DNA of 64,000 nt from Auritidibacter sp. Marseille-P8566. GTDB taxonomy: Bacteria; Actinomycetota; Actinomycetes; Actinomycetales; Microbacteriaceae. This document shows, piece by piece, positions 52,179-56,515 of the stretch. The notes below the pieces were generated by a model, which saw only the letters and a list, made by a program, of their open reading frames with translations, ran no database searches and was not told where the DNA came from. The stretch's first letter is position 1; each line of letters begins with the position of its first letter. The DNA lies in NCBI GenBank assembly GCA_945895375.1, contig CAMDEE010000004.1:1-64000 (forward strand), read 5' to 3'. Position numbers and translations under genes: made by a program.

Positions 52179-52234
52179 AGTACATGGAGCCAAATTCGGC
52201 TTCTTCAAAATCAACCACCAATTGGAGTTCCGTC

Positions 52235-53833
52235 ATGATTAACGTGCGTGAACTTGAGATAACCATAGGTGCCAGGGTATTGATGTCTGGGGTTAACTTT
52301 CAGGTCTCTAAAGGAGACAAAGTAGGGCTTGTTGGCCGTAACGGTGCTGGAAAAACAACTCTGACCAAGGTAATTGCAGGGGATTTCCAGCCAAGCAATG
52401 GAACAGTTGAGAGAATCGGGGAGATTGGTTATCTTCCTCAAGACCCTAGAACAGGCGATCTTGAAGAGCTAGCCAGCGATCGTATTCTCAACGCCAGAGG
52501 CCTGGGAACCATTCTGAAGAAGCTTGAAGCCACTAGAGAGCAAATGGGCTCAGTTGATGAAGATGTCTACGAGCAGGCCATGGAGCGCTACGAGAAGCTA
52601 GAGAACCAGTTCCAATCTAACGGTGGCTATGCAGCTGAAGCTGAGGCTGCTGCAATTGCCAGCAACCTAGGACTAAAGCCAAGTGTTTTGAGTCAACCTA
52701 TTGGAACTCTTTCCGGTGGTCAGCGACGAAGAATCGAACTTGCTCGAATTCTTTTCTCTGATGCGACCACAATGATTTTGGATGAGCCGACAAACCACTT
52801 AGATGCTGACAGCATCATTTGGCTAAGAGAGTTTCTAAAGAACTACCAGGGTGGACTCATTGTCATTAGTCACGATATCGATATCGTCGAAGAAACCGTC
52901 AACCGAGTTTTCTACCTAGATGCCAACCGTGGAGTTATTGATATCTACAACATGGGTTGGCGATCATATCTGAAGCAACGTGAAGCAGATGAAGAGCGAC
53001 GCAAGCGTGATCGTGCCATCGCCGAAAAGAAGGCATCTGTTTTGCAACTGCAAGCCGCCAAGTTCGGTGCAAAAGCCTCAAAAGCTTCTGCTGCTCATCA
53101 AATGAATAAACGAGCTGAGAAACTTCTTAGTTCCCTTGATGATGTTCGTGAGAAGGACAGGGTTGCTAACATCAGATTCCCTGAACCACAGGCTTGTGGC
53201 AAGACGCCACTGTTCGGGCACAACCTCAGTAAGAGTTATGGCTCACTTGAGATTTTCACTGCAGTTGATCTAGCAATCGATAGAGGATCTCGCGTTGTCA
53301 TAATTGGGCTCAACGGTGCAGGTAAAACAACATTGCTTAGAATTCTTGGTGCAGTTGAAGACCCCGACACAGGAAAGATTGACGCAGGCCATGGCTTAAA
53401 GGTCGGTTACTACGCCCAGGAACATGAAACCTTGGATGTAACCAAGACTGTTTTGCAGAACATGAAGGAATCAGCTCCCGAACTAAACGACACTGATGCT
53501 AGAAAAGTATTGGGATCATTCCTGTTCTCTGGTGATGATGTTGACAAGCTAGCAGCAGTTTTGTCGGGAGGGGAGAAGACTCGACTTGCCCTTGCAGCAC
53601 TCGTTGTCTCAAGAGCCAATGTGCTGCTTCTGGATGAGCCAACAAACAACTTAGACCCAGCTAGCCGCGAGGAAATCTTGAAAGCACTTGCATCCTTCAC
53701 AGGAGCTGTGGTGTTGGTTTCTCACGATGTTGGTGCAGTTGATGCGTTGAACCCTGAGCGTGTCTTGGTCATGCCTGATGGGCAAGAAGACCTTTGGAAT
53801 GACGGATACCGCGAACTAATCGTGTTGTCCTAA
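52235..53833 (+). CDS. ABC-F family ribosome-associated ATPase
   Basis: This 532-residue protein has two ABC ATPase domains and no membrane segments, the ABC-F layout of translation factors acting on the ribosome. Walker A motifs are GRNGAGKTTLTK and GLNGAGKTTLLR, signatures LSGGQRRRIELA and LSGGEKTRLALA, and Walker B ends in EPTNHLD and EPTNNLD. A charged linker lies near residues 255-320. The ATG at 52235 has TGGAG upstream; an ATG at 52184 would add 17 residues. It could be a housekeeping translation factor or an antibiotic-resistance ABC-F; I cannot tell which. Confidence 0.9.
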   Translation: MINVRELEITIGARVLMSGVNFQVSKGDKVGLVGRNGAGKTTLTKVIAGDFQPSNGTVERIGEIGYLPQDPRTGDLEELASDRILNARGLGTILKKLEATREQMGSVDEDVYEQAMERYEKLENQFQSNGGYAAEAEAAAIASNLGLKPSVLSQPIGTLSGGQRRRIELARILFSDATTMILDEPTNHLDADSIIWLREFLKNYQGGLIVISHDIDIVEETVNRVFYLDANRGVIDIYNMGWRSYLKQREADEERRKRDRAIAEKKASVLQLQAAKFGAKASKASAAHQMNKRAEKLLSSLDDVREKDRVANIRFPEPQACGKTPLFGHNLSKSYGSLEIFTAVDLAIDRGSRVVIIGLNGAGKTTLLRILGAVEDPDTGKIDAGHGLKVGYYAQEHETLDVTKTVLQNMKESAPELNDTDARKVLGSFLFSGDDVDKLAAVLSGGEKTRLALAALVVSRANVLLLDEPTNNLDPASREEILKALASFTGAVVLVSHDVGAVDALNPERVLVMPDGQEDLWNDGYRELIVLS

Positions 53834-53890
53834 ACGGTATTGCCGCCTATTCCTAATAGTGTTTTTACAAGAAAAAAGAAAGGTTTAGAA

Positions 53891-54598
53891 ATGGATCTAG
53901 TAACGATTACGCAAGCACTGTTTATGCTCGGCTTTGTATCTATGGCTGCAGGAACTCTGTACTTTGTGCTTGAGCGAAGTGAACTAAAGACTGAACACAA
54001 AGCGACTGCGACTTATGCAGCGTTAGTTACTTTCATTGCTGCCATCTTCTATTGGCAGATGACTCAGGTTGTTTCCTTCCCAGGTCTTACTGATGTTGCC
54101 GCTATTGAATCGACAATGCCGATTAGATATCTCGATTGGCTTCTTACAACTCCACTACTTCTTCTAGAGTTCGGAATCATTGCATCTCTGGCGGGAGCAC
54201 CAAAGGGGTTTACTTACCGACTGGTTCTTGCTGACCTAGTCATGATCATTACCGGTTATTTCGGTGAGATTGGTGCGCCAGGAACAGTTGGTAACTACGT
54301 CAACTTCGCACTGTCTACTTTTGCTTGGCTATACATCGTTTACACAATCTGGAACATCAAGCCAACCAAGGGAACAGTGTTGGTAAAAAGATCTGTGGAG
54401 ACGATGAAGAAGTTTGTTGTTTTCGGTTGGATGATTTATCCAATCGGAACAGCTACTCAGGAGTTCTTAGAACTATCAGGATCTGATGCACAAACCATCC
54501 AGCTAGCCGTATGCGTGGCAGCAATCATTTACGTCTTTGCTGATGTCATCAACAAGGTTGGTTTTGGAGTTGTTGCTCTGAGAGCCGTTAGGAAGTAA
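53891..54598 (+). CDS. Microbial rhodopsin, predicted light-driven proton pump (DTE type)
   Basis: This 235-residue seven-helix protein starts at the ATG behind AAAGG. The Schiff-base lysine is Lys222 in VINKVGFG. Helix C reads RYLDWLLTTPLLLLEF, giving Asp82 (acceptor), Thr86 and Glu93 (donor): a DTE motif of outward proton pumps. Leu90, at the spectral tuning site, suggests green absorption. Phe53 occupies the place of the conserved proteorhodopsin His75, and the only His in the protein is His36. Phe139 is bulky at the position where carotenoid-binding pumps have Gly. Retinal synthesis genes are not in the window. It lies between an ABC-F gene and SURF1. Confidence 0.93.
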   Translation: MDLVTITQALFMLGFVSMAAGTLYFVLERSELKTEHKATATYAALVTFIAAIFYWQMTQVVSFPGLTDVAAIESTMPIRYLDWLLTTPLLLLEFGIIASLAGAPKGFTYRLVLADLVMIITGYFGEIGAPGTVGNYVNFALSTFAWLYIVYTIWNIKPTKGTVLVKRSVETMKKFVVFGWMIYPIGTATQEFLELSGSDAQTIQLAVCVAAIIYVFADVINKVGFGVVALRAVRK

Positions 54599-54619
54599 AA
54601 CTTCTTAGTCAAGAAGTTT
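54598..54619. terminator. AT-rich inverted repeat between rhodopsin and SURF1 genes
   Basis: A perfect 9-base inverted repeat, AAACTTCTT-AGTC-AAGAAGTTT, spans the stop codons of the two convergent genes. It could be a weak bidirectional terminator, but the stem has only two G-C pairs and no strong T-tract follows on either side. Confidence 0.35.
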
Positions 54620-55388
54620 GTCTTCAACTTCTGCGTCTTTATCACGGTTAAGTATTCTCAATCGTCTAGGCGGTAACCCAGCTTTTCTTCTCCGCTCTTG
54701 AGAAAGAGTCCAGAAGACGGCACCGATTGCCATAAGGCCAAAGAGAATCCATTGCAACGCATAACTGAGGTGATTACCTTCACTGAGCATTGGTTTTGGA
54801 ATTGCTTGGCCACGAGGAGCCTCTGGAACTTCAAATTTCAATCTGCCATAGGCCTGCGTATAAACATTCTCTTTGTTTAGTTGGAGACTTGCCTCTTCAA
54901 GATAAATGCTTGAGAGCTGACCGTCTGGAGCAGTTCTATCCAGATCTGGTTCAGCTGGTCGCAACCTAATCTCAAGAGTTCTCTCTGCGTCGTTTACTTC
55001 TGGAATCAGATCAGGTGTATCAGCTGTGCTTCCAGTCGGTAGCCATCCTCGCTCAATCCAAATCACAGAACCCTGATTGGTTTCAAAAGCAATCAACTGT
55101 AGGAAGCCGGGGTAGGCGTTGAAAGGTCTATTTCTAACGATGTAACTGGCCTCAGGTAGGTATCTACCAGTTACAGTTGCAGATCTAAATGCCAATGAGC
55201 TATCCCAGTTTTGAGTTGGTGCAAGGATTTCTTCCAAGGCTTTTGGCTCAGCATTGTAATTGGCCTCAATTAGTTGATTCTTACCAACAACTTCCGCTTG
55301 TCTTTCGAATTGCCACTGCGATAAGAACCAGCAGGCGACTGTGAACGAAACTACTAAGACAGCCCATTTCAACCAGGCTGTGTTGCGC

Positions 55389-55405
<17 letters not shown>
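54605..55405 (-). CDS. SURF1-family cytochrome oxidase assembly protein
   Basis: This 266-residue protein has an N-terminal and a C-terminal membrane segment around an extracytoplasmic domain, the SURF1 layout. Visible family motifs are WQFERQAEV, RPFNAYPGFLQL, VIWIERGWLPTG and HLSYALQWILFGLMA. SURF1 helps insert heme A into subunit I of cytochrome c oxidase, which fits ctaA and ctaB in the same region. The ATG at 55405 overlaps the 3' end of the DUF3099 gene by 17 bases; a longer reading is unlikely. Confidence 0.9.

Positions 55406-56515
<1,110 letters not shown>

Follow-up and report, generated by a model that had tools for sequence, protein, structure and literature searches.

A clade of ESR-related rhodopsins, mainly from Microbacteriaceae, that lacks the counterion histidine

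Proteorhodopsins use a His-Asp pair as proton acceptor, which is described as fully conserved in these proteins in PMC12002130 and is represented by His51-Asp72 in MAR. The histidine bridges the counterion aspartate to a tryptophan of the neighbouring protomer, as reported for the contact W34-H75 (PMC4374980) and for the triad W35-H76-D98 (PMC8257665), and Glu189 of MAR is the helix-G glutamate of its proton release path (PMC12002130). In ESR, the replacement His57Met raised the counterion pKa from below 2 to 6.3 (PMC10743670). For other proteorhodopsins the histidine itself is held to raise the counterion pKa (PMC11790970, PMC12002130), and RlActR, an actinorhodopsin in which the histidine is present, has a pKa of 5.6 (PMC11790970). 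When methionine takes the place of the histidine in proteorhodopsins, the bacteriorhodopsin (BR) arrangement is reportedly recreated, which brings back both the M state and activity at low pH (PMC12002130). Wild-type ESR in DDM is stated to accumulate little M at pH 7.5 (PMC10138546). A group of Exiguobacterium/ESR-type rhodopsins is already in print as well. PMC6106888 describes an Exiguobacterium subcluster that consists of the rhodopsins of Pontimonas, acMicro-4 and Yonghaparkia, and PMC12422013 describes 'ESR Type-1' second rhodopsin copies in several Rhodoluna. The accessible portions of these two papers do not mention the counterion histidine, its tryptophan partner or the helix-G glutamate.

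The rhodopsin gene studied here lies in a stretch of 64,000 nucleotides (the window) of contig CAMDEE010000004.1 from Auritidibacter sp. Marseille-P8566, family Microbacteriaceae. It occupies positions 53891-54598 of the forward strand and encodes 235 amino acids with a Pfam match to PF01036 (E 6.7e-40); an NCBIfam search returned no family assignment for the protein. The mechanical open reading frame call began at TTG 53840 and gave 252 amino acids. ATG 53891 appears to be the better start, since it is preceded by a GAAAGG box and a similar box stands ahead of the matching start in most relatives of the genus, and the coordinates of the original prediction are thus correct. Direct inspection also bore out its residue assignments, namely Asp82, Thr86, Glu93 and Lys222 as a proton-pump set, Phe53, Phe139, and His36 as the single histidine of the protein. 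With Arg79, Asp218 and Tyr54, the last of which is invariant in a 47-row alignment, the pump set of proteorhodopsins in the wide sense of PMC12002130 is present. The AlphaFold2 model is confident (mean pLDDT 93.7) and places His36 just past the A-B loop. Its best match among solved folds is ESR (PDB 4hyj), with Z 29.2 and an rmsd of 2.1 A over 222 residues at 41% identity. The features of the locus are listed in Table 1.

Table 1. Features of the rhodopsin locus, with their positions in the window and, for residues, their frequency among 54 distinct clade proteins
Feature	Position	Strand	Basis or frequency
ABC-F type ATPase gene, left border of insertion site	52184..53833	+	Pfam; border common in genus
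GAAAGG ribosome-binding-like box ahead of ATG 53891	53878..53883	+	Sequence; similar boxes in most genus relatives
CDS of ESR-type rhodopsin without counterion His, 235 aa	53891..54598	+	ORF, AlphaFold2 model, Pfam PF01036 E 6.7e-40
Met12, position of Trp in ESR and GPR	53924..53926	+	Met 49/54, Ile 5/54 (may be inflated)
Phe53 (TTC), position of GPR His75, ESR His57, BR Met56	54047..54049	+	Alignment
Arg79 (BR Arg82 position)	54125..54127	+	54/54
Asp82, predicted primary proton acceptor and counterion	54134..54136	+	54/54
Thr86, DTE motif	54146..54148	+	54/54
Glu93, predicted proton donor (Lys in ESR)	54167..54169	+	Glu 52/54, Ser 2/54
Thr187; Tyr in ESR and GPR, Trp189 in BR	54449..54451	+	Thr 53/54, Val 1/54 (may be inflated)
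Gln190-Glu191, polar pair at end of helix F	54458..54463	+	QE 25, EE 16, QQ 11, EQ 2 of 54 (may be inflated at 190)
Ala210-Ala211; 211 is Glu in ESR and the position of the MAR release Glu189	54518..54523	+	Ala-Ala 54/54
Asp218, second counterion carboxylate	54542..54544	+	54/54
Lys222, retinal Schiff-base lysine	54554..54556	+	54/54
SURF1-family gene, right border of insertion site	54605..55510	-	PF02104 E 1.2e-26; border common in genus

Helix B of the window protein aligns without gaps with GPR, ESR, BR and the actinorhodopsins, which confirms that Phe53 stands where GPR has His75, ESR His57 and BR Met56. Among 54 distinct proteins of the clade to which the window protein belongs, position 53 is Met in 35, Leu in 16, Phe in three and His in none, so that the predicted absence of the counterion histidine holds for the window protein and the clade alike, and with it the absence of the His-Asp acceptor pair by which PMC12002130 characterises proteorhodopsins. 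Within the window's genus the counts are Leu 5, Met 4 and Phe 3; outside it, Alpinimonas psychrophila is an example of a Met53 carrier and Microcella alkalica of a Leu53 carrier. The residue changed at least six times inside the clade, and His was exchanged with other residues at least twice on the whole tree. By alignment, Phe53 is just one of the hydrophobic residues that this variable site takes, and the trait of the clade is the lack of His. The original prediction had expected Phe to be the shared residue; with three occurrences in 54 it is not, since Met and Leu prevail, and a clade defined by Phe at the position of His75 was rejected; one bacteriorhodopsin-like rhodopsin from the phylum sample (L120) also carries Phe there. 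The histidine is found in 24 of the 31 panel rows outside the clade (nine actinorhodopsins including RlActR, nine phylum rows, ESR, GPR, 9jov, 9jtq, XR and GR); it is missing from the other seven, namely BR, with Met, and six bacteriorhodopsin-like rows of the phylum sample, with Ala twice, Ser twice, Phe and Met.

A histidine that really stands beside the counterion and is hidden by misalignment or sequencing error is extremely improbable. Although the window protein comes from one assembly, the gap-free helix B and the position of the sole histidine in the model, just after the A-B loop, argue against misalignment, and the histidine is lacking in all 54 distinct proteins, which come from separate assemblies, some of them of named cultures. 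Nor is chance at issue as the cause, given its complete absence from the clade and the low dN/dS values, which were 0.03-0.09 in seven pairs of genus members at a dS of 1 to 2, near saturation. The clade is under purifying selection in these seven pairs. A literature search exclusive of supplementary files and most subscription journals found no report, in the text accessible, of the missing histidine in this group; the group itself is known, and the missing histidine appears to be unreported.

The loss of the histidine is, by alignment, not solitary, as its tryptophan partner at position 12 and the helix-G glutamate of ESR are also replaced by hydrophobic or small residues. Position 211 corresponds to MAR Glu189 when seven residues are counted back from the helix-G aspartate (Glu189 and Asp196 in PMC12002130), and this release-path glutamate, present in ESR, is Ala in all 54 clade proteins. 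GPR has Asn here, so the helix-G glutamate is not universal in proteorhodopsins and its loss is the weaker feature. Positions 190-191, which are T-L in ESR and G-Y in GPR, are always two of Gln or Glu in the clade (54/54). One of the two search patterns of our scan of named genomes includes Met12 and the other includes Thr187 and Gln190, so the frequencies at these three positions may be inflated; position 53 is in neither pattern, and the search of the family sample made no use of them. Two further features that had been singled out as unusual proved to be ordinary. Phe139 at the fenestration site, conserved in all 54 clade proteins, is shared with GPR and was rejected as an odd feature. The B-C loop, thought to be longer than in actinorhodopsins, is ESR-like: the span from the position of the histidine to the aspartate is 29 residues in the window protein, 28 in ESR and 22 in GPR by an index check, and 30 in RlActR and 44 in the host's own actinorhodopsin by hand count.

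Our phylogenetic analysis upheld the prediction of a separate group. In a tree of 85 rows, the 54 distinct proteins form one clade with a support of 100/99, apart from actinorhodopsins and xanthorhodopsins. On a sampling without His-bearing ESR relatives of other phyla, ESR is its sister (support 97/90), although this relation is less certain because long branches are joined. Nesting inside ordinary actinorhodopsins was looked for and is not seen. A constraint that unites the clade with the actinorhodopsins was rejected by the AU test (p = 3.8e-05, for a group named after the tree had been seen), and with it the reading of the window protein as an odd actinorhodopsin. The actinorhodopsins, with which the original prediction had compared the protein, are not the appropriate frame, as the nearest solved relative is ESR. 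By its sequence the window rhodopsin is a member of a well-supported, mainly Microbacteriaceae clade beside ESR. The clade proteins, including that of the window, were counted as distinct when they differed in the last 200 residues, the short fragments L076 and L078 being dropped, and the tree took 15 of the 29 phylum rhodopsins and eight of the 19 actinorhodopsins of the genus for which loci were available.

The window-type gene occurs in at least 12 of the 67 genomes of the genus, which is a lower bound since only matches with loci were read and many of these genomes are incomplete. PF01036 matches occur in 60 of the 67; where no locus was available, the score and the profile range served to assign the match to the actinorhodopsin-like ones. 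With a profile built from members lacking the histidine, 34 of the 398 genomes of the family sample matched at E 1.4e-39 or better, of which 30 gave loci (G232, G268, G349 and G447 were left out); after these came genomes with E values of 7.6e-26 or weaker, in which the matches read from the window's genus were ordinary actinorhodopsins. In the order sample, the window genome was the only one of 396 to reach 1e-26. The phylum sample had PF01036 matches in 46 of 396 genomes, and none of the 15 loci placed on the tree, out of 29 extracted, fell in the clade. The scan of named genomes yielded 46 loci, two of them short fragments, with the labels Rhodoluna, Microcella, Pontimonas, Alpinimonas, Aurantimicrobium, Yonghaparkia and others. 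The others are mostly actinobacterial metagenome-assembled genomes (MAGs); two MAGs are labelled Cellulomonadaceae and one Auritidibacter. The tree places the two Cellulomonadaceae loci, L061 and L062, among sequences of Pontimonas, and the Auritidibacter locus (L037) has a score equal to that of L010 of the window's genus, so these labels may be wrong. As far as the loci show, the published Exiguobacterium/ESR-type rhodopsins of Pontimonas, acMicro-4, Yonghaparkia and Rhodoluna belong to the same clade. PMC6106888 assigns a different rhodopsin to Microcella; the Microcella loci found here fall in the clade. Two members, L059 from a MAG labelled Microbacterium FW.016 and L060 from an actinobacterial MAG, have Ser at the position of the donor Glu93 and thus a DTS motif without the counterion histidine. 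In one genome (G447:C1:1091028-1091608) the window-type gene is matched in two pieces, residues 5-106 and 144-234, and is possibly a decayed copy.

Among characterised rhodopsins, ESR resembles the window protein most, with 44% identity over the aligned columns, the best fold match to the model, a sister position on the tree, albeit on a long branch, and a nearly equal B-C span. Where the window protein has Phe53, Met12, Glu93 and Ala211, ESR carries His57, a Trp, its Lys donor and a Glu; the His57-counterion contact and the Lys donor of ESR are thus both absent. GPR and MAR share the DTE pump set, and GPR in addition agrees with the window protein at the green-tuning (Leu) and fenestration (Phe) positions, but both have the His-Asp pair, which the window protein lacks. 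RlActR (PDB 9hfk) and the host's own actinorhodopsin have the DTE motif and come from the same bacteria, but are only 26-27% identical to the window protein and belong to another clade; His and Gly stand in all nine actinorhodopsin rows where the window protein has Phe53 and Phe139, and the protein does not branch with RlActR. BR likewise has no histidine beside the acceptor aspartate and carries Met there, as do most clade members, but it lies on another branch of the tree and has an Asp donor and Trp at position 187. Since the His-Asp pair and other defining features are lacking, the labels ordinary proteorhodopsin and ESR are excluded as far as the sequence can tell; the window protein otherwise has their pump residues and is seen as a variant on that branch.

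From the sequence, its residues, the clade and the predicted fold we infer that the window protein probably pumps protons outward under light, with a lone Asp as acceptor in the manner of bacteriorhodopsin, within an ESR-related clade that in our sample is almost only found in Microbacteriaceae. This is supported by the conservation of Asp82, Thr86, Arg79, Asp218 and Lys222 in all 54 clade proteins and of Glu93 in 52. Light would isomerise the retinal on Lys222, the Schiff-base proton would pass to Asp82, Glu93 would reprotonate the Schiff base and the proton would exit outward. Asp82 alone, with Arg79 and Asp218, would act as acceptor in place of the proteorhodopsin His-Asp pair, and the counterion would no longer be coupled to the neighbouring protomer. 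The stored proton would leave through a remodelled extracellular path, in which the helix-G glutamate is lost and Gln/Glu190-191 are gained. M formation and pumping would then follow the titration of Asp82, with a pKa near 6 as in ESR His57Met, or lower as in BR.

The original prediction of a changed pH range of pumping is plausible. The published pKa precedents are opposed in direction, so the shift in this clade could go either way; we expect a pKa of Asp82 of about 6 and an M formation that is no longer limited by titration of the histidine. Alternatively, waters or the residues at positions 190-191 together with Arg79 might give Asp82 an ordinary proteorhodopsin-like pKa and release, so that the loss of the histidine would have little effect. 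The invariable presence of Gln or Glu at both of these positions would suit such compensation, as would the repeated interchange of Met, Leu and Phe at position 53, as if the side chain mattered little. However, the single exchange His57Met in ESR shifted the counterion pKa by more than 4 units (PMC10743670), and 11 of the 54 members have only Gln at positions 190-191. We consider compensation improbable.

The accessible literature yielded no photocycle, pKa or pumping measurement for any protein of the clade. The rhodopsin of Pontimonas salivibrio (WP_104913209.1), with which the clade member L088 (Met53, Val187) is presumed to be identical, binds retinal in Escherichia coli and absorbs at 538 nm in DDM, the cells having been washed at pH 7 (PMC7979833); the transport assays of that study covered four proteins, to which this rhodopsin did not belong. 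This value lies between those of the two forms of ESR His57Met, 517 nm at pH 8.5 and 565 nm at pH 5 (PMC10743670), and would fit a counterion pKa near neutrality; ordinary colour tuning fits equally well.

The gene adjoins SURF1 in all 12 carriers of the genus, with the ABC-F gene on its other side in 11; in the twelfth (L008) the contig ends at the gene and only the right border is present. SURF1 was found in 57 of the 67 genomes of the genus, 45 of which have no known copy of the window-type gene, and all 19 loci examined from these 45 have the ABC-F and SURF1 neighbours with no rhodopsin between them. MAGs labelled Rhodoluna are among the relatives that share this locus, and outside the genus the surroundings of the gene differ. 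The shared site in the carriers and the empty site in the others are most simply read as a single acquisition next to SURF1, made by the ancestor of only some members of the genus. Lateral transfer into a common ancestor is likewise proposed in PMC12422013. In two loci without the rhodopsin, L153 and L154 (genomes G054 and G043), SURF1 is nearer to that of the window (51% and 49% identity) than in other genomes lacking the gene; these may mark a loss or the edge of the acquisition. An origin from a phage or plasmid was rejected. Phage sequences searched with the window rhodopsin gave no match, the plasmid matches were two Polymorphobacter replicons at about 30% identity, and a plasmid search with the ESR sequence gave distant matches only (30-34%). 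A contig of a viral collection, IMGVR_UViG_3300005405_000220 (L032), shows 40% identity over 44 residues, within residues 76-119.

The window genome measures 1.43 Mb and is 99.8% complete. It contains two PF01036 genes, namely that of the window rhodopsin and that of a canonical actinorhodopsin (L002), which has the histidine and Gly at the fenestration position, and in addition a heliorhodopsin (L138, G000:C3:141258-142037; PF18761, E 5.2e-85). Three rhodopsins are thus encoded in a genome of this size, and the window rhodopsin would be used alongside the host's actinorhodopsin. A search for a blh-type dioxygenase was negative for the window genome and for the 11 further known carriers of the genus, which are 70-94% complete; the same search was positive in three of five genomes outside the genus. 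An RPE65-type oxygenase was not found in the window genome and three others, and this family was matched in two control genomes. As neither enzyme was found, the host probably takes up retinal from outside, and PMC12422013 proposes retinal uptake for most of the group.

With an actinorhodopsin that already pumps, the window rhodopsin could instead sense light or pump only very slowly, the loss of the histidine reflecting a relaxed demand on speed. The canonical actinorhodopsin and the heliorhodopsin in the same genome are in line with this, as are the loss of the donor glutamate in two clade members and the characterisation of the Exiguobacterium namesake as a poor pumper and light sensor (PMC6106888). 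Nevertheless, it seems unlikely: Glu93 is kept in 52 of the 54 proteins, and there is no transducer gene among the neighbours seen (ABC-F, SURF1, DUF3099 and BioY). PMC6106888, which discusses one bacteriorhodopsin for P. salivibrio, found there neither a locomotion system nor a counterpart homologous to the transduction system of Exiguobacterium, and argues for photoheterotrophy. A proton pump with Asp82 as lone acceptor remains our preferred reading. More tentatively, and with somewhat greater doubt than confidence, we suggest that proteorhodopsin-type pumps have, as an entire natural clade, switched to a lone-Asp acceptor like that of bacteriorhodopsin and pump over a different pH range, probably wider or more acidic, than the actinorhodopsin of the same cell.

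What the histidine does in bacterial pumps has mainly been argued on the strength of mutants and structures from pumps that possess it, and in recent work every proteorhodopsin is taken to have the His-Asp pair. The clade described here, which includes proteins of cultured Microcella and Alpinimonas and presumably of P. salivibrio, lacks the histidine naturally, and in the window genome its member is encoded together with a pump that has the histidine. The clade would let the contributions of the pair and of its cross-protomer partner to pH range, photocycle and proton release be tested directly. Nor would the counterion histidine define all pumps on this branch, and a small freshwater bacterium with an ordinary pump and a second one from a distinct family without the histidine may serve as a natural test of its function.
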